Below, piece after piece: positions 53,795 to 64,000 of a stretch of DNA of 64,000 nucleotides. This DNA is from Chitinophagaceae bacterium IBVUCB1 (GTDB lineage Bacteria; Bacteroidota; Bacteroidia; Chitinophagales; Chitinophagaceae): assembly GCA_002127285.1 (NCBI GenBank), contig NFUW01000002.1, positions 159,683 through 223,682 on the forward strand, in the 5' to 3' direction. Position 1 is the stretch's first letter. Every line of letters begins with the position of its first letter. The translations under genes were made by a program, and so were the position numbers. Below the pieces are notes generated by a model, which saw only the letters and a list, made by a program, of their open reading frames with translations, had not been told where the DNA came from and did no database searches.

Positions 53795-53871
53795 CAGTAG
53801 CCCCGACAGGACAAATATCGCACCAATTAATGGAAATTTTAAAGCGATTATGTTTGATAATGCTTACAAAA

Positions 53872-55291: not shown

Positions 55292-56785
55292 TTATGCTGC
55301 AAAGGAATAGGTATTGGAGAATATATTTATCTCGCCACCCTGATTAAATCTCCCAAACTGCACAGCTCTGCCACGCTCCGGCACTTCAATCACGCAATCC
55401 ACATCATGCTGGAAAGTATTTGCACCCCTGAACGCCCCATCTTTTGTGGTCTGGAATACATAGATGAACGATTTATCAGGATTATTGGCTTTAATACGGT
55501 TCAGGTCTTCCGGCTTCAGCCCCAGTTTATTCACACTGTCCAGAAAGATAAAATCATACATAAATAGATTAGCCGGTAGTTCAGATGCCACATAAAGGTT
55601 AGGATGCTTCACATCTTTATCGTTCAGCTTATCCTGCAAAGTTTTGTCCAAACCTTCCTCTTTCGCTACATATAGCACCTTTCCATGATTACGAGCCAGG
55701 TATCCGGCAAAATCAACGCAAAGGAATGATTTACCCATTTTAGGCTTACCAAATACCATAGCAGTAAAGTTGGTGGATGGGTCGCCGATCAAATCCAGCC
55801 ACTTACCTTTCATACCAAGCGTTTTGAACCGCAGCTTTGCAAAATCCATACTATTCATAAGGGTAGGTCGTAGGGTTGGCAGGTTGCCTAATCCATTTAC
55901 TGGTTGGCAGGCACAACCCAATATGCCCTCTAACCCATTCAGTGTATTTGGCTCAATCTCCAGTGTTTTACTACTCTTATCGCTTATGAATACCTCAAGG
56001 TTCTTTTTGATTTCGTGCATTTCAGTGATATAAGGGTCGCTATCATTTATTTTACCTTTTTCGTAAGCCCTGTTGATCTGGCTTAGAAAATCTTTGGCTT
56101 TCTGCTTCATGCCCGGCTTGCCGTTCATATTGATATAGCGTTTTATAAAGATGACAGAGGAAAGTATTTTTTCACCACCTGCAATTTTCTTCAATGCTTC
56201 ATAAGTGTCTTGCTTCAGGTCAATCCTTATTTTAGCTCCCATGCTGTTATAGGTATCTATCAGACGTTGCTGGATAAACCTTATATGCTCTGCCTGTGCC
56301 GAGGTCTTTCTGATTTTCTTTTCAAGAATAGCTTTTTGTAGGGTATTGATAAACCGCAATAGTTCTTCTTTGGTCTTTACCTTACCGTTCAAGTTCACAA
56401 AACGCCTGATGAGTTTTAACTCCTCCGGGATACGTTCTACCAGTAAAGGTTCTTCATTACCTGATTTGCTTTTGGCAGCCTCCTTTACAGGTTTTTTGCC
56501 TTGCTTGGGTAAGGCTGTTTTGACGATTTTCTTATCGGGCTGTTGCTTTGCCTGCTTTCCGGTTTTAGCTTTCTGAGCTTTATTATCCGTTCTGTGATAT
56601 TCAGCCAGCTTTTCAAAATAGGTATCAATTACTTTCTTTATAGTATCGCTGCTATCGTAGATGCTCCAGTTAGTACCCTTGTTGGTTACTTTCTCTACAT
56701 AGCTATGACCTTTACGCAATGCCTCCGGCAAGCTATGAAAATCTATGCTTCCTGTCTTTGTGTAGTAATTATTCTTCGTGTACAT
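55292..56785 (-). CDS. RecA/RadA-like P-loop ATPase of the phage-like region
   Basis: A 497-residue protein. Residues 1-55 form a small N-terminal domain (KTGSIDFHSLPEALRKG), 60-110 a Lys/Gln/Pro-rich linker, 110-275 helical repeats (two related units beginning LKLIRRFVNLNGKVK and VIFIKRYINMNGKPG), and 325-497 a RecA-like ATPase with Walker A GKPKMGKS and Walker B FIFLDS. The TTKDGAFRGANTFQHDVD segment resembles RadA/DnaB-type ATPases. It follows the methylase-helicase gene by 10 bases and should work with it on DNA; the exact role is unknown. Confidence 0.65.
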   Translation of the reverse strand: MYTKNNYYTKTGSIDFHSLPEALRKGHSYVEKVTNKGTNWSIYDSSDTIKKVIDTYFEKLAEYHRTDNKAQKAKTGKQAKQQPDKKIVKTALPKQGKKPVKEAAKSKSGNEEPLLVERIPEELKLIRRFVNLNGKVKTKEELLRFINTLQKAILEKKIRKTSAQAEHIRFIQQRLIDTYNSMGAKIRIDLKQDTYEALKKIAGGEKILSSVIFIKRYINMNGKPGMKQKAKDFLSQINRAYEKGKINDSDPYITEMHEIKKNLEVFISDKSSKTLEIEPNTLNGLEGILGCACQPVNGLGNLPTLRPTLMNSMDFAKLRFKTLGMKGKWLDLIGDPSTNFTAMVFGKPKMGKSFLCVDFAGYLARNHGKVLYVAKEEGLDKTLQDKLNDKDVKHPNLYVASELPANLFMYDFIFLDSVNKLGLKPEDLNRIKANNPDKSFIYVFQTTKDGAFRGANTFQHDVDCVIEVPERGRAVQFGRFNQGGEINIFSNTYSFAA

Positions 56786-56795
56786 GCGTTGTTTT

Positions 56796-59700
56796 TTATG
56801 CTGCGAGTAAATCTAATTCTAATGCGAGTGCTTCCGCTTCCAGTTCTAACAAGGAGATTGTATTATCGGGTTTATCTTCCTCGTATGGTGGAATGTCTAT
56901 TTTTTTCCGGCTGCTGTAACGCTGGCTGCTTTTCTCAATTTCCATGAACTGTGCTGAGTTAATGGTAATAGCGCAACTATGGTTAGCCTGTAAAACCTCA
57001 ACAAACTGGCTGATAAGGTTATCCGGTAAACGGGCAACCATTTTATCGGACACTTTTTCAAAGTTGTTGTTCTCTACCAGCTCTAATAATTGCTTGTCCA
57101 GATACACATCACCGCCTTTCACTCTTGAACCTGGTACGATGATCTTGTAATAGCCGGATTGCCTGAAAAACGATATGCCCGTATTAGTTATGATATGATG
57201 CCCATGTACCAATGATTTAAGCAACGGTAAAGCCTTTATAATCGGCACTACTACTTTATCCTGTACTTGTTCACCCGGATTCCAGTTTTCAGGCATAAGA
57301 ATACCTTTCACGGTTTTTTGGTTTATAGTAGTATAACTTACCAGCTTCCCTTTAAAATCGCTGAATGCTTGTAGCAGGTTTCCGGTTATGATATGACGTA
57401 CCTTCCGGTCAACATTGTTTTGCTTTGTATAACCTTCCCATTGATCTAAAAGCGTTTCTTTTTCCGGCTGGCTAATATCAGCGCTTGCCCCTATAATTGC
57501 CATAACATCCTCGGAATACGATGCAGGTATCGCAAAATACTTACTACTGTTCGCTATGGCATATCGTAGTTTAATAAGCGAAGGCGCATACGGGTTCTTT
57601 TTCTTCTTATCAATATTGTAACCTAAGAATACTGCCGGAACCAGCTCATTACCGCCTGTAAAAGTCTCGATGGGATAATGCAGGCTTCTGCCAACATGAA
57701 AGAACTTAAAAATCTTCTCTAAATATTGCCTGCGGTTATTGGCTTTATTGACGATTACATTTAGTTGTCCTTGTTTCGCCGCTTCCACCTCCTTTTCTCT
57801 TTCCTTCACAGCTTCCAGCCATTCGGTAGAATGGGTTTCCAGTTTCTTTATTTTTTTATCATCGGGAATGTTCTTTTTAATATCCTCCCATTTGGCTATT
57901 GCTTCCTGCTGTTCCTCAAATAACCTGCGCTTCCATTCTACGGTATATTCTTCCTGTAATTCTTTTTGCAGTTCGGTCGCATCTTTTCCTCTCAAAGCCT
58001 CGTTCAACAGGTTACTAAGCTCTGATTTTGTAAAAGGCTTTTTCAGCACGTTTGCTTTCACTATTTCCAAAATGCTGTCATCACCAAAAGCACTATCAGA
58101 ACCTTTGCCCATTTTTACCACCTTAGCGGACAACGTTTCCGCATCAAGGTTCATCGCCTCCACCTCAAGGTCATATTCCCCGACCTGCCGCAAATAGGCT
58201 TCGTAATCATTATAACGTTCAGCAATTTCGTTATAAAAGTCCTGCTGCATTTTTGTGGAAAGTACCGCTACACGCCCTGACACTTTATGTGCCGCATCTT
58301 CTATCACGTTGGTTTCCCCTGATCCATCTGATTTGCTGTCTTTAAGGTGCAAAGGGTCATCCAGTAAATCGTTGATGTCCTGATTTTCCCCTAAATATTC
58401 CTTTACAATCTTATCGCCGTACTTATTCAGAAAATCAGGCACGTTCAGTATCTTGGTTGACTGCTTTTGGTTGGAAGTGGTATTAGCATCTAAAGACTTT
58501 AGTTTTTTCTGAAGCATCATCATCAGCCTCTTTTCAGCAGGTATGGCAGATGTGACGTAATCATAAATGGGCTTTAGTATTTGTCCTGTCCGGTTAATAC
58601 GCCCACGCTTTTGTACTTCGGTATTAATATCCAGTTCCGCCTGTAATACAATCATTACCCTTTGACGGATCTCCGAAGCAGGAACTTTTGCAGTAGGTAT
58701 GGCATGTGCTGAAGCCCCGGTACTGCCGGATTGATTGATCATCAATACATCCACTTCGTTGTTGTTGAACTGGCGGAAGGCATCATTGGTATTGATGCGC
58801 TTCCGGGTCATCACCAAGCCTTTCCCTGTCTTTGTATTAAGCTGTAATCCATACTTGCGCCCAGTTACCTCTGCAACAGTATAGCCTGCATCTGTGAGTT
58901 TTTTGATAATTACGTCAATGGGGGATATGGTAATGCCTGTGGAAGCAGTCTTAATTTTATCATAGATGCGGTGATATTCCATTTGCGCATCGGCAGGTAG
59001 TTCGTTCAGTTCAAATTTTTTATAAACAGGATTGCCGTCCACATCTTTTTCCGTGTAGCGTAGGATGCCATCAAGTCCCCGCTTTAATACTTCTGTAAAA
59101 TCCGCATTAATGATGTCTCCATCAGAAACAGGCAACCCTTTTTCATTCTCAATGGTCTCAATAAAACTGCCCATTGTGGATGCAAAAGCGATAACAGGCT
59201 TTTTACCTTCCTGTAAACGCATAATTGCCCGTTCTGCCACTGATTCCGCTTTCAGGCTGAAGAGCATCTGGTTGATGACCTGAAATACTTTTGAGAAATA
59301 GGGGATATTGTCCACGCCTGCCTGAGATGTACCTTCTCTTATGACAATTTCTTTACCTTCTGCAACAGCTATTTTATCAAGTTCCTCTACCTGTTCATTG
59401 ACAAATTTGTTCTGGAAAGCAATTACATCTCTTAAAATATCTGTGATGTTGTCTGCAATAGCCCTGTGTTCTTCCGCTTTTTCGTCTAATGAGATATAAT
59501 TCACTTCCACGCCTTCAAAGCTCCGTTCCCTGCGCAGCATCTGACCTTCTGCCACTAATTGCGAAGACAATACTTCCTGCAACGCAACACCGCCTCTTGT
59601 GATAGCTTCTACCAGTTCATCCTTGCTCATATTGCAGTCTGCAATTGCTGTTTTCATGGCATAGATGGGCATATTGTCTGGTCTTTTTGCAAAAGTTGCA

Positions 59701-61460
59701 GACAGGAATATGACACCCTTCGTATGGCTTGCCACCCTTTGCAGAAATTCCCCTGTATTGGACGAGCCGGAACTGTTATGTGCCTCGTCCAGGATAAAAA
59801 TATTACCGGCTGCTATAGCTTGCAGGAACATAGGTTTTTCCGGCTTCTTTTCCGGGCTGTTGAATTGGGAATAGGTAGCCACCACGAAATCATATTTTGC
59901 AGGTATTTCCCTTGAGGCAAATACGGATTGTTGTTCGCTAACCGGGGGTGCGGAATACACCACGTTTCCGTCTTCGTCTTTAATATCCGTTTTAGGTTCA
60001 CGCCCGTTTACGATGAATGGCTTTAAATGTCCCGAACCGATAGCAGACAAATCACGGTAAATATCTGAGAACAGGTTAGCCTTTTCCGTAAGGAATACAG
60101 GCTTTAATCCCTGACAAACCGCATAGCGGATAATAGATGCTGCGATACGTCCTTTACCAATGCCTGTCTGGTCGCCGATAATCATTCCCTGACCCCTTGC
60201 CTCGATGTTATAGATTGCCATTGCAACGGCATCTATCTGTTCGGCAGATAACGCTTTGCAGAGCGCAGCTCTGGAAGGAAATTGCAACCTGTGCTTCACA
60301 AAATTATCTATATCCCCACCGACTTCTTCTTTAATCTGGCTGATAGCAGATTGTGTTTCAAAAGCCATGCTATCCGGCACTTGTGTATTTAGTACAATGC
60401 AACCGTCCGATGCAGGCAGGTAAGGTGCGCCAAGCCCGTTTAACCCGAACATATCCTGTAACTCCAATGCTTCTTTTTCCAGTTCACTTAATTTATTCAT
60501 ACTATCTATTGTAACAGGTTTTTCCATTGCACCAATGACCCTTTCAAACAAATCATCAAAGCTGCTAATCACTTTATCGCTTTCTTTATCATACACAGGC
60601 GCTGCGCCCTTTGGCTCAAACTTTCTGCCGTCTATCAATATCAGGCGCACATCAAATGAAGTACCCTGTCTTGAATAGAGCTTTGCCCCGTCTATTTGCA
60701 ATACATCAGCTATGTTATAACGGCTGTACAGGTAATTGAAGAATATGCGGTTTCTGCCAGCCTGTATCCTGCCTTTTTCATCCCATCTGGTATGTCCCCC
60801 GATGATAATAGCGGCTTTCCCATCATTGGTCATAGTTTCCAACGCCCGTAAAGCCATCAGGTGATCCAGTGTGTCAATTTTGAACGTATCGAACAATACA
60901 AGATTATCCAATTTGCCAAAGGGCGGATTGGTTGTCACTGCAATGAAATGGCGTTCCACATCAAAGAAAGATTTAGTGGCATCCCGCTTCCAAACGTTGG
61001 CATAACCCTGTTTTTGCAGGTTGCTGTTGCGTAAGTCATCCAGCTCATTTACATAGATCCGTGCAGGGTCTCCGGCAATGGTGAGCAATCCGTTACCAGC
61101 CGAAGGCTCAAATCCATAGCCTCCGTTCTGTTCCAGTTTATTTAAACCGCAAAAGACACCCGCCAGAAAGCCGATAGGGGCTGGTGTGGAGTATTGCTGC
61201 AATAAGATGCTCTGGCTTGTCCTGTGAGACAGGTTAAGCTGACTGTGATACAACTCTACTATTTGTTCATACCGCTCCCTTAATGTGCCATTGCTTCTTG
61301 CTATTTTTCTTGCCTGTTTTACGATAGCCAGCTCTGTAAACTCCTTGACCGTAGTTTTATCCGTTATTCCGTAAGAAGCTGCCAGCTTCTCCATAGAAGT
61401 CTTGTTATGCTTCCTTTTCAGCATCAATTCAGCCTCAACCGCAAATACAAATGCACTCAT
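56796..61460 (-). CDS. Methyltransferase-Strawberry notch helicase fusion (DarB-like)
   Basis: A 1,554-residue protein. After a helical N-terminus comes a methyltransferase-type domain (about 80-275) with FEPSAGNGLL for S-adenosylmethionine and TNPPFG, the NPPF signature of N6-adenine methylases. A superfamily 2 helicase follows: Walker A GDQTGIGKGR, DEAH box ILDEAHNSSG, LSATFAKRP motif III, and motif VI-like QKRGRINRTGQ, the pattern of Strawberry-notch-type helicases. A long coiled region and a C-terminal domain complete it. Phage P1 DarB, an anti-restriction protein packed in the virion, has the same methylase-plus-helicase plan. Start chosen at the Met giving the full helical N-terminus; a terminator lies just upstream. 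Confidence 0.75.
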   Translation of the reverse strand: MSAFVFAVEAELMLKRKHNKTSMEKLAASYGITDKTTVKEFTELAIVKQARKIARSNGTLRERYEQIVELYHSQLNLSHRTSQSILLQQYSTPAPIGFLAGVFCGLNKLEQNGGYGFEPSAGNGLLTIAGDPARIYVNELDDLRNSNLQKQGYANVWKRDATKSFFDVERHFIAVTTNPPFGKLDNLVLFDTFKIDTLDHLMALRALETMTNDGKAAIIIGGHTRWDEKGRIQAGRNRIFFNYLYSRYNIADVLQIDGAKLYSRQGTSFDVRLILIDGRKFEPKGAAPVYDKESDKVISSFDDLFERVIGAMEKPVTIDSMNKLSELEKEALELQDMFGLNGLGAPYLPASDGCIVLNTQVPDSMAFETQSAISQIKEEVGGDIDNFVKHRLQFPSRAALCKALSAEQIDAVAMAIYNIEARGQGMIIGDQTGIGKGRIAASIIRYAVCQGLKPVFLTEKANLFSDIYRDLSAIGSGHLKPFIVNGREPKTDIKDEDGNVVYSAPPVSEQQSVFASREIPAKYDFVVATYSQFNSPEKKPEKPMFLQAIAAGNIFILDEAHNSSGSSNTGEFLQRVASHTKGVIFLSATFAKRPDNMPIYAMKTAIADCNMSKDELVEAITRGGVALQEVLSSQLVAEGQMLRRERSFEGVEVNYISLDEKAEEHRAIADNITDILRDVIAFQNKFVNEQVEELDKIAVAEGKEIVIREGTSQAGVDNIPYFSKVFQVINQMLFSLKAESVAERAIMRLQEGKKPVIAFASTMGSFIETIENEKGLPVSDGDIINADFTEVLKRGLDGILRYTEKDVDGNPVYKKFELNELPADAQMEYHRIYDKIKTASTGITISPIDVIIKKLTDAGYTVAEVTGRKYGLQLNTKTGKGLVMTRKRINTNDAFRQFNNNEVDVLMINQSGSTGASAHAIPTAKVPASEIRQRVMIVLQAELDINTEVQKRGRINRTGQILKPIYDYVTSAIPAEKRLMMMLQKKLKSLDANTTSNQKQSTKILNVPDFLNKYGDKIVKEYLGENQDINDLLDDPLHLKDSKSDGSGETNVIEDAAHKVSGRVAVLSTKMQQDFYNEIAERYNDYEAYLRQVGEYDLEVEAMNLDAETLSAKVVKMGKGSDSAFGDDSILEIVKANVLKKPFTKSELSNLLNEALRGKDATELQKELQEEYTVEWKRRLFEEQQEAIAKWEDIKKNIPDDKKIKKLETHSTEWLEAVKEREKEVEAAKQGQLNVIVNKANNRRQYLEKIFKFFHVGRSLHYPIETFTGGNELVPAVFLGYNIDKKKKNPYAPSLIKLRYAIANSSKYFAIPASYSEDVMAIIGASADISQPEKETLLDQWEGYTKQNNVDRKVRHIITGNLLQAFSDFKGKLVSYTTINQKTVKGILMPENWNPGEQVQDKVVVPIIKALPLLKSLVHGHHIITNTGISFFRQSGYYKIIVPGSRVKGGDVYLDKQLLELVENNNFEKVSDKMVARLPDNLISQFVEVLQANHSCAITINSAQFMEIEKSSQRYSSRKKIDIPPYEEDKPDNTISLLELEAEALALELDLLAA

Positions 61461-61518: not shown

Positions 61519-62454
61519 TTATCCATGTAGCGGCAGGTATTGTAATTCCTGACGGTTGTTCCAGATATTATCGAATAGCTGGTTGCCATCTGCCCATTCC
61601 GTTACAAATTCATCCCCAAAACGTCTGATACGTTTGATTGCCCAAACAGCAATATGTGGTTCCGCTCCGGCTGCTGAATATCCATTATAAACCATTTCGG
61701 GTTCGGATTCATCAATCCTTGTCGGGTCTCCGAAGGATGAGTTGCCATTGGCTGCGCTCATGGTCGTATTGAGCTGTGTCAGCAAATCAATCATATCCAG
61801 CAAATAGCCTTGTTCCGTATTATTCTGGTTCTGGATATTCACAATCCCGTCCCGCACATTGGTAAGCAAGGTCGAATGCGTGTCCTGAGCATTTTTAATA
61901 TTGTTCAGGTGCGCATTCTCTGTAACCTGCCCGGTCTTCAAATCATTGAGCAAGGTGGAGTGCGTGTCCTGAGCATTTTTGATATTGTTCAGGTGTGTAA
62001 TTTCCGTTACCTGCCCGGTTTTAATATCATTCAGCAAGGTGTTGGTAGCATCCTGTGTATTTTTTATTCCATCCAGCTTTCCATTCTGTGTTGCCTGTCC
62101 GGTTTTAATATCAGTAAGTAAGCCCGTATCTCTAATAACCTCTGTTTTGATGTCGGTTAACAGGTTTACTTCGGTTATCTGGTTAGCGAGGGTCGGGTCT
62201 AATGTGCCATCATCCGCATCCAACATTGCTTTAATAGCATCCCTTAAAGCAAAAATACTGGGAAGCCCTGCCGGAACGGTAACATCATTCAGGTTAACGA
62301 AGACATGCTTTAAATGCCCCTCGCCAATATCAATACGAACCGTGTCGTTGCGTATCGCATCAATCGTTTTGATCTGTTTTTTGTGGATGAATAGCACATC
62401 ACCGTTATTCACCACTTTAATACACGAAAGATCGTCTGTAATCTGTATCGCCAT
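61519..62454 (-). CDS. Fibre-like structural protein with 28-residue repeats
   Basis: A 311-residue protein without signal peptide. The N-terminal domain (1-95) is beta-rich. Residues 112-195 are three 28-residue repeats (LLxDIKTGQxTxxxxLxxIKN...), exactly four heptads each, predicting a trimeric coiled-coil shaft. The C-terminal domain (about 235-311) has AEPHIAVWAIKRIRR. This head-shaft-tip layout is typical of phage fibres or needle-like structural proteins. It is 2 bases after a small membrane gene in the lysis-like cassette. Family not recognised; role inferred. Confidence 0.55.
   Translation of the reverse strand: MAIQITDDLSCIKVVNNGDVLFIHKKQIKTIDAIRNDTVRIDIGEGHLKHVFVNLNDVTVPAGLPSIFALRDAIKAMLDADDGTLDPTLANQITEVNLLTDIKTEVIRDTGLLTDIKTGQATQNGKLDGIKNTQDATNTLLNDIKTGQVTEITHLNNIKNAQDTHSTLLNDLKTGQVTENAHLNNIKNAQDTHSTLLTNVRDGIVNIQNQNNTEQGYLLDMIDLLTQLNTTMSAANGNSSFGDPTRIDESEPEMVYNGYSAAGAEPHIAVWAIKRIRRFGDEFVTEWADGNQLFDNIWNNRQELQYLPLHG
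61870..62121 (-). repeat. Three 84-bp in-frame repeats in the fibre-like gene
   Basis: Three successive units of 84 bases encode the 28-residue coiled-coil repeat; the second and third are nearly identical in protein sequence. There are no spacers, so it is not a CRISPR array. Confidence 0.85.
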
Positions 62455-62456
62455 AT

Positions 62457-62663
62457 TTAGTTGTTTTTATTGATCTTATTTACTTTCTCTGCTATTGCTT
62501 CCCCGATAAGCGAACCCACAAAACCGCCAATCATTACCAAAGGGGCCGCATCCTTTTCTGCTGCCTTAGCGTACCAGTAGGTAACCAAAGAAGAAAGTAA
62601 GGTCATCGTTGAAATAATCGCTTTCTCTGTATTGCGCATCTGTTGTATATTTTCGGAAATCAT
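62457..62663 (-). CDS. Small two-helix membrane protein, holin-like
   Basis: A 68-residue protein with two hydrophobic helices (about 14-32 and 41-59) and a Lys/Asn-rich tail. The start ATG at 62663 is one base after the upstream stop; a frame extending to 62687 overlaps that gene. Size, topology and position in the cassette suggest a phage holin or accessory membrane protein, but no family is recognised. Confidence 0.5.
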   Translation of the reverse strand: MISENIQQMRNTEKAIISTMTLLSSLVTYWYAKAAEKDAAPLVMIGGFVGSLIGEAIAEKVNKINKNN

Positions 62664-62664
62664 G

Positions 62665-63309
62665 TTATCGTAGTAACCCGTAGGCAATAATGCCGCTTAG
62701 TACCAGTCCGCCTGCTGAAAGCAGCCCGTTCTTAATTTTCTGCCGCCTGAAGGTTTTCTTATACTGTTTGTTCTCTTCCAGCAATAAGGTTTGCTGGCTG
62801 ATACTTTCATCGAATGATAATTGAAGGGATTGGATTTGTTCCTGCTGCATCAAAAGGGTTGTGTCCTTATTTATTAGTTGCTTTTCCATTCCGGTTATTA
62901 CCCGATCATACAAACTGTCCTTTTGAGTGTTGTTAGCCATTAGTACCTGAATCGTTTGCTCCAGCGTGTCGCAATTTTCCAGCATTTGAGCAGTGTCTGA
63001 CAGCTCATTCCCATAAGCTATAAGCTCATTTACCTTTTCTTCCAGTTGTGCATTCGTTCGCTTGGCTTTGCTCAATGCTGATCCTGATTTAGAAACCTGT
63101 ATTTTCAGAGCTGCGTTTTCAGTGTTAACAGCATCTATTCGTTCCTGCAATCCCTGTTGTATTGAGATGGTTTCTTTTTGCAGCTTATCAGGGCTTTCCA
63201 TCTTATTTGTGCTAACCGGCACAGCTCCTGTGCCATTGAGAAAGGTGCTGGCATTATATCCTATCATGCTGCCTAATAGTAGATATACAATATTGATTAA
63301 TCGTGTCAT
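62665..63309 (-). CDS. Coiled-coil protein with membrane segments at both ends
   Basis: A 214-residue protein with an N-terminal helix or signal anchor (5-22), a long heptad coiled coil (about 40-185) and a C-terminal hydrophobic segment (LLSAGGLVLSGIIAYGLLR). It resembles in layout, not in sequence, the spanins that link the two membranes during phage lysis. It lies between the two small membrane genes of the cassette. Confidence 0.5.
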   Translation of the reverse strand: MTRLINIVYLLLGSMIGYNASTFLNGTGAVPVSTNKMESPDKLQKETISIQQGLQERIDAVNTENAALKIQVSKSGSALSKAKRTNAQLEEKVNELIAYGNELSDTAQMLENCDTLEQTIQVLMANNTQKDSLYDRVITGMEKQLINKDTTLLMQQEQIQSLQLSFDESISQQTLLLEENKQYKKTFRRQKIKNGLLSAGGLVLSGIIAYGLLR

Positions 63310-63359: not shown

Positions 63360-63572
63360 CTACTCGATATTTTTCTTTTCAAAGGAGTAACCGAAACAAC
63401 CTGCCGCTATCAAAGAAGCGAAACTGTAAAACATAAACTCCGGTATATCTTTATTGAAAAATTGCTGCGCTATCCAGCTTATAATAATAGCTACTATGAG
63501 TAAGCCTATGACTACTTCCCGTAAGCTGTAGCACCCATCCTTGTCCTTAAATAACTGTTTGAGAAAATCCAT
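63360..63572 (-). CDS. Small membrane protein, holin-like
   Basis: A 70-residue protein: soluble start MDFLKQLFKDKDGCYSLRE, then two hydrophobic helices (about 19-36 and 45-63) and a charged end EKKNIE. The start at 63572 lies 4 bases after the stop of the cell-wall enzyme gene; the longer frame to 63704 overlaps that gene and lacks likeness to a protein. Holin function is inferred from size, topology and the enzyme next to it. Confidence 0.55.
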   Translation of the reverse strand: MDFLKQLFKDKDGCYSLREVVIGLLIVAIIISWIAQQFFNKDIPEFMFYSFASLIAAGCFGYSFEKKNIE

Positions 63573-63576
63573 TGTT

Positions 63577-64000
63577 TCAGGCTGCCATTGCAGCATTATG
63601 GGTTTGAGAAAACACATCCGTAAGCAGTGTGTAGGTAAAGCTGTTTCCATATCGCTCCTTATGGGCTTTACAAAGCCGCATGAATGTGGCAAAATCATCG
63701 GCATTAGCGAATACCTGGCAGCCTGCCGAATGCTTATCTACATTGCTGGTAGTTCCCGATGGCAATGCACGGTGGATATTGATACCGAACATGCCTGTTT
63801 CCTGCCTTGCACCTGAAAAGTCAAAGTCCCCATTCCTGTCAAAATCCCTGAAAACGGTAACAGGTTTTCGTTGTACCAGTGCCTGATACTTGCCCCTGTG
63901 CAATCCAATCTGGTATGCACCTATATACTGTCCGGGCTTTAAAATAGCTGTACCATTCACGTTCATGGGATTTTGTAGCCAATGCGTTCCCGGATCAGTA
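63577..64000 (-). CDS. YkuD-like cell-wall enzyme (5' truncated by window)
   Basis: The frame is open to the window edge; the Met at 63966 is preceded in frame by TDPGTHWLQNP, so it is internal. Counting from that Met, His65 (INIHRA) and Cys83 with His79 (KHSAGCQ) match the His...HxxGC catalytic pattern of L,D-transpeptidases, used by some phages as lysis enzymes. A DFDRNGDFDF loop at 41-50 resembles a calcium-binding DxDxNGDxD loop. It should cut or link peptidoglycan. Followed by holin-like genes. Confidence 0.65.
   Translation of the reverse strand, partial: TDPGTHWLQNPMNVNGTAILKPGQYIGAYQIGLHRGKYQALVQRKPVTVFRDFDRNGDFDFSGARQETGMFGINIHRALPSGTTSNVDKHSAGCQVFANADDFATFMRLCKAHKERYGNSFTYTLLTDVFSQTHNAAMAA

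Follow-up and report, generated by a model that had tools for sequence, protein, structure and literature searches.

Salisaeta icosahedral phage 1 (SSIP-1, NC_017983) is described in four reviews (PMC5332951, PMC6356626, PMC4958249, PMC6260650) as a membrane-containing icosahedral phage with two types of capsid protein. Packaging ATPases are treated in PMC4958249 and in PMC5894146. DarA/DarB and ArdC are reported to guard DNA from restriction when it is transferred (PMC5512222), and DarB is carried in the head of phage P1 (PMC9024508). Here we report on a stretch of 64,000 nucleotides from Chitinophagaceae bacterium IBVUCB1 (genome G000), which covers positions 159683-223682 of its contig C2 and is called the window below. 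It contains a gene, assigned to protein cluster c6, for a methylase joined to a helicase, and this gene lies in an inserted element that resembles SSIP-1 in part of its gene content. Overall, we consider the element to be a temperate, tailless, SSIP-1-like provirus whose methylase-helicase would shield incoming viral DNA from restriction, and we give this reading a probability of about 0.68.

The methylase-helicase and the inserted element

The central gene and the left junction of the element are as follows:

56796..61460, minus strand: methylase-helicase (c6), 1554 amino acids (aa), with Pfam helicase models, methylase and helicase motifs, and near-full-length relatives
53797..53812, no strand assigned: left junction, where host homology stops at an imperfect copy of the tRNA-Arg 3' end (12 of 15 bases agree)

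Within residues 390-1101 of c6, Pfam finds Helicase_C_4 (E 1.9e-21) and AAA_34 (E 6.5e-21), that is, a Strawberry-notch helicase, and no Pfam methylase model matches at E 0.1 or better. The protein contains FEPSAGNG (residue 117) and NPPF (178), which we take to be motif I and a second motif of the methylase, and intact Walker A (429), DEAH (558), SAT (586) and GR..R.GQ (953) patterns, which we likewise take to be helicase motifs so named. All six patterns recur in 12 of 12 non-redundant family members above 1300 aa, a count that excludes the shorter copies; this is contrary to the inactive motifs in relatives that the first-pass annotation, made from the letters of the window, had named as evidence against its proposal. 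Two other genomes carry relatives that align along almost all of c6 at 78% and 73% identity, showing that c6 is no chance open reading frame (ORF). The fusion of an NPPF methylase with a Strawberry-notch-type helicase, predicted in the same annotation, is found exactly at these coordinates and on this strand, together with the motifs and the Pfam helicase models, and we regard c6 as confirmed, as far as sequence goes, to be a real ORF encoding a methylase joined to a Strawberry-notch helicase.

Compared with a single other genome, G004, the window's genome has an insertion of about 42.2 kb at the 3' end of a tRNA-Arg gene, from window position 53797 to about C2:255658. In G004, whose isocitrate dehydrogenase is 97% identical, the dehydrogenase, tRNA-Arg and AIR carboxylase genes stand together; the window's genome is identical to G004 over 100 bases at the tRNA, yet these bases lie 42 kb from the dehydrogenase. 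The copy at the left junction is the best match in 50-57 kb of the window for words of 12 and 15 bases, and is tied with two others for 18. At the right junction (C2:255658), the tRNA end is overlapped by a serine recombinase of 517 aa (C2:254143-255696), which has a Pfam match and matches the integrase family phrog_95 (E 5.6e-85), and adjoining it is a helix-turn-helix (HTH)-IrrE regulator of a phage type (phrog_2439, E 6.7e-77). Among 12 related elements examined, the recombinase ORF overlaps a tRNA gene (Arg, Val, Leu or Ser) in 8, namely both copies in G000 and those of G002, G007, G009, G018, L054 and L056 (L100, L111 and L125 are outside the 12); in G018 the tRNA lies well inside the called recombinase ORF. 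An Rfam scan of 40 kb gave no match. Relaxase and transfer genes have no Pfam match among the module and cargo proteins scanned, which include part of the cargo ORFs, and a conjugative element is rejected on this ground; the conjugation genes to the right that the first-pass annotation had considered are likewise absent from these proteins.

The second copy in G000 is a divergent element that starts at a tRNA-Val 3' end and extends from C1:263550 to at least 289 kb, its right boundary having been looked for and not found. It encodes a longer methylase-helicase of about 2025 aa.

A conserved module related to SSIP-1

c6 belongs to a conserved module of about 20 genes that continues to the right of the window. 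When cluster profiles were compared with 33 of the 57 SSIP-1 proteins, two module proteins were shown to be homologous to proteins of that phage: c2 matches gp34, transglutaminase-like and annotated as structural (profile E 1.7e-16, hhalign 97%), and c4 matches gp40, annotated as a structural ATPase (profile E 2.7e-21, hhalign 98%). In c2, Cys108, His140 and Asp156 are invariant in 8 of 8 aligned sequences and presumably catalytic. A third SSIP-1 protein annotated as structural, gp43, is a large methylase. It is not matched by the c6 profile in hmmsearch (E 0.93), and hhalign aligns it with the methylase domain of c6 at 90%; in addition, the small methylase c34 (E 8.8e-9) and a protein in the position of c6 in Persicobacter (E 1.4e-33) match it.

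The position of c6, between c22 and c4, is an exchangeable slot. We surveyed 81 loci (L044-L124), consisting of the best 80 of 184 confirmed stretches and the first viral locus, with 10-kb flanks; the loci are related and near-identical ones are not collapsed. The slot has a methylase-helicase in 39 of them, a D12 adenine methylase in 24 (a count limited to these loci), both in 0 and neither in 18, the last comprising 2 loci where c4 is reached (L100, L102) and 16 where it is not. Nine of the 24 D12 loci also have a Dcm-type protein, and one methylase-helicase locus has a Dcm-type motif; at L105:17727-19553, a RadC domain is fused to a cytosine methylase of the Dcm type beside the D12 methylase. 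Besides, G045 has a different SNF2 helicase at the slot position, and in Persicobacter, a distant relative, the slot is occupied by an ArdC N-terminal domain with a polyvalent-protein zincin. That several enzymes of anti-restriction or DNA modification are accommodated at this position is the chief reason why we propose an anti-restriction function for c6. As a separate observation, a RadC-like region is visible, by reading, in the consensus of the longer methylase-helicases.

The capsid of the element may be formed by c3, for which neither Pfam nor PHROGs has a match. From 52 aligned c3 proteins of loci L044-L124, AlphaFold2 gives a model (pLDDT 77, pTM 0.69) with N-terminal helices followed by eight strands. 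Foldseek finds six matches of this model in the PDB at E<=0.001, every one a capsid or penton protein (two from EhV-201, one from SGIV, two from PBCV-1 and the FLiP penton); SPV1 follows at rank 8 (E 2e-3), and furin chains appear lower in the list. In BFVD there are 26 matches at E<=0.001, in which capsid proteins are mixed with movement and unnamed proteins. The first of them, I1ZBH9, has 211 aa, the length of SSIP-1 gp46 and gp35, and its accession could not be resolved. We therefore regard c3 as likely, going by its predicted fold, to be a vertical jelly-roll capsid protein. A second candidate, c0, is modelled with eight strands (pLDDT 94), and its weak PDB matches include several viral coat proteins. 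Profile searches of solved structures by sequence, also tried for c3 and c0, gave one chance-level match each and were set aside.

Putting these together, the element would have entered at the tRNA-Arg 3' end by means of its large serine recombinase. The methylase-helicase would be packed in the particle, or made at once after entry, and may then translocate along the incoming DNA, modifying or covering it, with the result that host restriction would be blocked. Packaging is suggested here because gp43 is annotated as structural and aligns, weakly, with the methylase domain of c6; this, the formation of particles and the biochemical action of c6 are what we infer.

The module is found well beyond the window's genome. 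Among 59 genomes, the window's own included, the transglutaminase-like protein c2 is present in 9 and the methylase-helicase in 8, and on genome contigs a c3 relative was confirmed in 184 of 216 candidate stretches. Within the 81 loci, several of which are cut by contig ends, c3 and c26 are present in 80 each, c2 and c0 in 78 each, c16, c45 and c27 in 75 each, and c25 in 71; the 80 c3 proteins represent 70 distinct sequences. The carriers include Chitinophaga, Niastella, Flavisolibacter, Sediminibacterium, Puia and many metagenome-assembled genomes (MAGs) of Bacteroidota, with two loci from a MAG titled 'bacterium'. Since an even draw over the phylum gave the module in 3 of 395 genomes, again including the window's own, the family is wide but patchy in Bacteroidota.

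In viral collections, the family is little seen. tblastn with c3 (E<=1) and c2 (E<=0.01) finds no phage record among 50,697, in a search so insensitive that it missed SSIP-1 there, and this collection may omit close records of the window's genome. Three pattern-based scans of IMG/VR gave at least six contigs, and the five IMG/VR records whose ends were looked at carry neither an end-repeat class nor a completeness value; in the last scan, c2 is present in 6 of 6 loci, and c3 and the methylase-helicase family in 5 of 6, the sixth being 5.9 kb. c2 also matches five Persicobacter replicons, three of which measure 47.6-53.2 kb, one of these recorded as circular. A related module is present on CP012854.1 (L125), a circular Persicobacter plasmid of 48.8 kb, where the slot holds ArdC and one gene reads as ParA-like; CP012856.1 (47.6 kb) was also matched. 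Replicons of this kind, though recorded as plasmids, may in fact be genomes of viruses. Among the titles listed from open-licence literature, none reports such proviruses. Whether there is a family of temperate, tailless viruses with jelly-roll capsids across Bacteroidota, scarce in phage databases, integrating at tRNA genes by serine recombinases and delivering different anti-restriction enzymes (methylase-helicase, adenine and cytosine methylases as a pair, or ArdC) with the virion from one exchangeable slot, is to us an even bet. If it is so, SSIP-1 gains many integrated relatives, including some in named bacteria that can be cultivated, such as Chitinophaga eiseniae Ak56 (L057) and Flavisolibacter nicotianae X7X (L067), and its capsid, way of packaging and virion enzymes become open to experiment; moreover, DarB-type anti-restriction proteins would be placed in tailless viruses, with a natural replacement series in one slot.

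The other genes of the module, from left to right, are listed below, with positions in the window or, where so marked, in C2:

53872..55209, minus strand: accessory gene at the element's end, 445 aa, no family match
55292..56785, minus strand: RecA/KaiC-type ATPase (c4), 497 aa, P-loop domain at about 313-481, homologue of SSIP-1 gp40
61519..62454, minus strand: possible fibre (c22), 311 aa, with repeated LLxDIKTGQ/LNNIKNAQ units, recurring at this position in relatives
62457..62687, minus strand: small hydrophobic protein (c23), possibly membrane-bound, 76 aa, TauE membrane-transporter model at E 5.4e-5, below its cut-off
62665..63309, minus strand: coiled-coil protein (c24), 214 aa, with a C-terminal hydrophobic segment, spanin-like by shape only
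63360..63572, minus strand: hydrophobic holin-like ORF, 70 aa, from an internal start of ORF 63360-63704, presumed counterpart of c58
63577..64000, minus strand: cell-wall enzyme candidate (c33), 201 aa, cut by the window edge and running on to C2:223864 (C2:223259-223864 in full)
C2:223897-224349: c44, amidase-type
C2:224355-225437: c1, peptidoglycan-binding-like
C2:225444-226145: c25
C2:226158-226667: c34, small methylase
Between c34 and c26: c35
C2:226844-227665: c26
C2:227668-227985: c27
C2:227982-228443: c45
C2:228448-228825: c0
C2:228841-229398: c36, endolysin-type
C2:229447-230163: c3, capsid candidate
C2:230211-230867: c16
C2:230903-232735: c2, transglutaminase-like
C2:232738-233220: c5
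Between c5 and c38: c37
C2:233539-233769: c38, HTH-like
C2:233773-234360: c28

Read from c28, the order thus ends with c33, c58, c24, c23, c22, c6, c4 and the 445-aa gene. The module proteins recognised by Pfam or PHROGs are lysis-type enzymes, methylases, the ATPase and an annexin-like repeat. The last is in c25, a conserved module protein (PF00191 at L010:7445-8146, E 5.1e-6, above its cut-off). c4, the sole ATPase recognised in the module, matches phrog_6891 (E 9.7e-20), and Pfam AAA_24/AAA_25 weakly, below cut-off. For the 445-aa gene, no Pfam model at E<=0.1 and no PADLOC family at E<=0.01 is found, and a single PHROG at E 0.097. The cell-wall enzyme expected at first reading has been upheld, c33 matching phrog_3000 (E 5e-35) and the endolysin family phrog_33083 (E 8.7e-14), with endolysin- and amidase-type PHROGs beside it. 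The holin, spanin and fibre named along with it are plausible by shape only, with no backing from a Pfam or PHROGs family: the holin-like ORF has no Pfam match and one PHROG of unknown function (E 0.0096), and c23 does not reach the threshold in a hydropathy scan.

Alternative readings

Several results weigh against the provirus. No tRNA turned up at the recombinase of 4 of the 12 elements (G004, G006, L078, L177). Metal and cytochrome cargo takes up about 18 kb of the insertion, between module and regulator (C2:234.7-252.4 kb), with cytochrome c (di-haem) peroxidases, MbnP, a Rieske protein, a fused RND efflux pump with an outer-membrane domain and a P-type ATPase, and a further 7 kb or so lies between the tRNA and an AIR carboxylase-like gene in the window's genome. 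Because of this cargo and the extra sequence at the right flank, more than one insertion event is possible, and the 18 kb may belong to the same element as cargo or have come in by a second insertion. The exclusive occupancy of the slot may in part reflect shared ancestry (70 distinct c3 among 80) and the limit of 10-kb flanks. As for c6 and gp43, their match covers the methylase domain only and is little stronger than the 79% which hhalign gives for c6 and P1 DarB, also between methylase domains only, and it therefore indicates that the two have a methylase of the same type, not that they are closely related.

The capsid and the machinery expected of such a virus raise further points of this kind. 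SSIP-1 gp45 and gp46, which are paralogues (hhalign 95%) and are taken here as its capsid proteins, are not significantly similar to c3 in sequence, since 18 of 60 shuffles for gp46 and 9 of 60 for gp45 score as high. The TM-scores of c3 to its six capsid or penton matches are low (0.25-0.37 by query), and rank 7 in the PDB (E 1.3e-3) is BcsB, which is no capsid protein; c0, the possible second jelly roll, has no PDB match at E<=0.001, and its first match is TasA, which is not viral. An FtsK/HerA-type packaging ATPase is a defining feature of vertical single jelly-roll viruses, and none is recognised here by Pfam or PHROGs, which a very divergent one could escape. Nor is a replication gene recognised in the element, and a crude scan gives no enrichment of membrane proteins (4 of 23, against 15 of 47 mechanically called host ORFs).

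The same observations bear on the possibility that the element is virus-derived, an integrative element or satellite that has kept capsid genes, has no infectious cycle of its own and uses c6 to protect itself or to defend the host. The metal-efflux and cytochrome cargo would suit such an element, as would the failure of Pfam and PHROGs to recognise a replication or packaging enzyme, the yield of six IMG/VR contigs (a lower bound) from three scans, and the defence genes beside the ATPase in two relatives. In G007, the end cargo past the ATPase (L028:6238-9307, contig C7) has three ThsB-type genes (E 1.3e-120, 4.1e-82 and 4.5e-49) and a weak ThsA match (1.3e-4), and a second element of that genome (C9, L043:9480-13605) has CARF6- and PRTase-type defence matches at its end; the window's 445-aa gene occupies the position of these G007 defence genes. 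However, the module is conserved across genera, the insertion is close in size to the SSIP-1 genome (42.2 against 43.8 kb), and the Persicobacter replicons of 47.6-53.2 kb, one of them recorded as circular, are extrachromosomal. We consider a satellite unlikely, though it deserves more weight than the remaining alternatives.

c6 might also be a host defence gene carried as cargo, which marks self DNA and blocks foreign DNA in the manner of BREX or restriction-modification. Type I and III restriction systems contain methylase-helicase pairs, according to PMC5512222, and relatives of the element do carry defence cargo. Against this, no PADLOC model matches c6 at E<=0.01, no nuclease or specificity partner is recognised beside it (its 445-aa neighbour having no family match), and its place is within the conserved module, flanked by lysis-type genes and the ATPase rather than at the variable end, in a slot that elsewhere holds D12, Dcm or ArdC. 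A defence role of this sort is thus quite improbable.

Finally, a remnant of a tailed phage with a P1-type DarB beside a lysis cassette could account for the lysis-type PHROGs matches (among which lysozyme-like c36 matches a 'tail fiber protein/lysozyme' PHROG at E 5.4e-27, and c1 an endolysin PHROG filed under head and packaging at 2.4e-4) and for the related methylase-helicases in three phage records, but it is scarcely credible, since neither Pfam nor PHROGs recognises a portal, terminase, HK97 capsid or tail-tube/sheath gene in the module, the other tailed-phage-type matches are weak coiled-coil ones to tape-measure (E 0.015) and scaffold (E 0.013) models, and c6 has no significant match to P1 DarB. 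The capsid, portal and terminase genes that the first-pass annotation had proposed to look for to the right were accordingly not recognised as such, the genes there resembling those of a tailless jelly-roll virus.

Comparison with known systems

The proposed provirus is most similar to SSIP-1, with which it shares homologues of gp34 and gp40, a large methylase (annotated as structural in the phage), a genome of similar size and the expectation of two jelly-roll capsid proteins. Unlike c6, gp43 is without a Strawberry-notch helicase and has a ParB domain; SSIP-1 also has its own annotated integrase and primase, its gene order differs, and its capsid proteins are not recognisably homologous by sequence. 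The vertical single jelly-roll viruses (kingdom Helvetiavirae, realm Singelaviria), as described in PMC12714852, are comparable in the small jelly-roll capsid candidate, the tailless-type gene set and the integrating or circular relatives. They differ in that the second major capsid protein is here only a candidate, the FtsK/HerA packaging ATPase is not recognised and the hosts are Bacteroidota. Because this ATPase is not recognised and the capsid matches score low, we do not claim membership.

P1 DarB is like c6 in having an N-terminal N6-methylase domain followed by a helicase of the SF2/SNF2 class. The helicase family is another one, however: Pfam assigns SNF2-rel_dom and Helicase_C (PF00176/PF00271) besides the methylase to DarB, against AAA_34/Helicase_C_4 in c6. 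The best BLASTP match between the two has E 0.059, which is not significant, no NPP[FYW] motif was found in DarB when looked for, and P1 is a tailed phage. Among the 50,697 phage records, three match c6 at E 1e-5, P1 not being one of them; one is Bacteroides phage BS-TP4, which has an annotated portal gene. Judged by these comparisons, c6 is DarB-like in architecture and stands outside the P1 DarB family. The equivalence to DarB put forward at the outset therefore holds for the architecture and fails for the sequence family; likewise, of the anti-restriction module in a phage setting, the phage-type element and its lysis-type genes have been found and anti-restriction is our best guess, and the P1-type, tailed detail has been given up.

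The polyvalent anti-restriction proteins of PMC5512222 provide a close parallel to the slot. They are described in tailed phages and conjugative elements, different from the jelly-roll-type provirus proposed here; their repertoire, with methylase-helicase, ArdC with zincin and RadC-Dcm, is the same as that of the single gene position occupied by c6.

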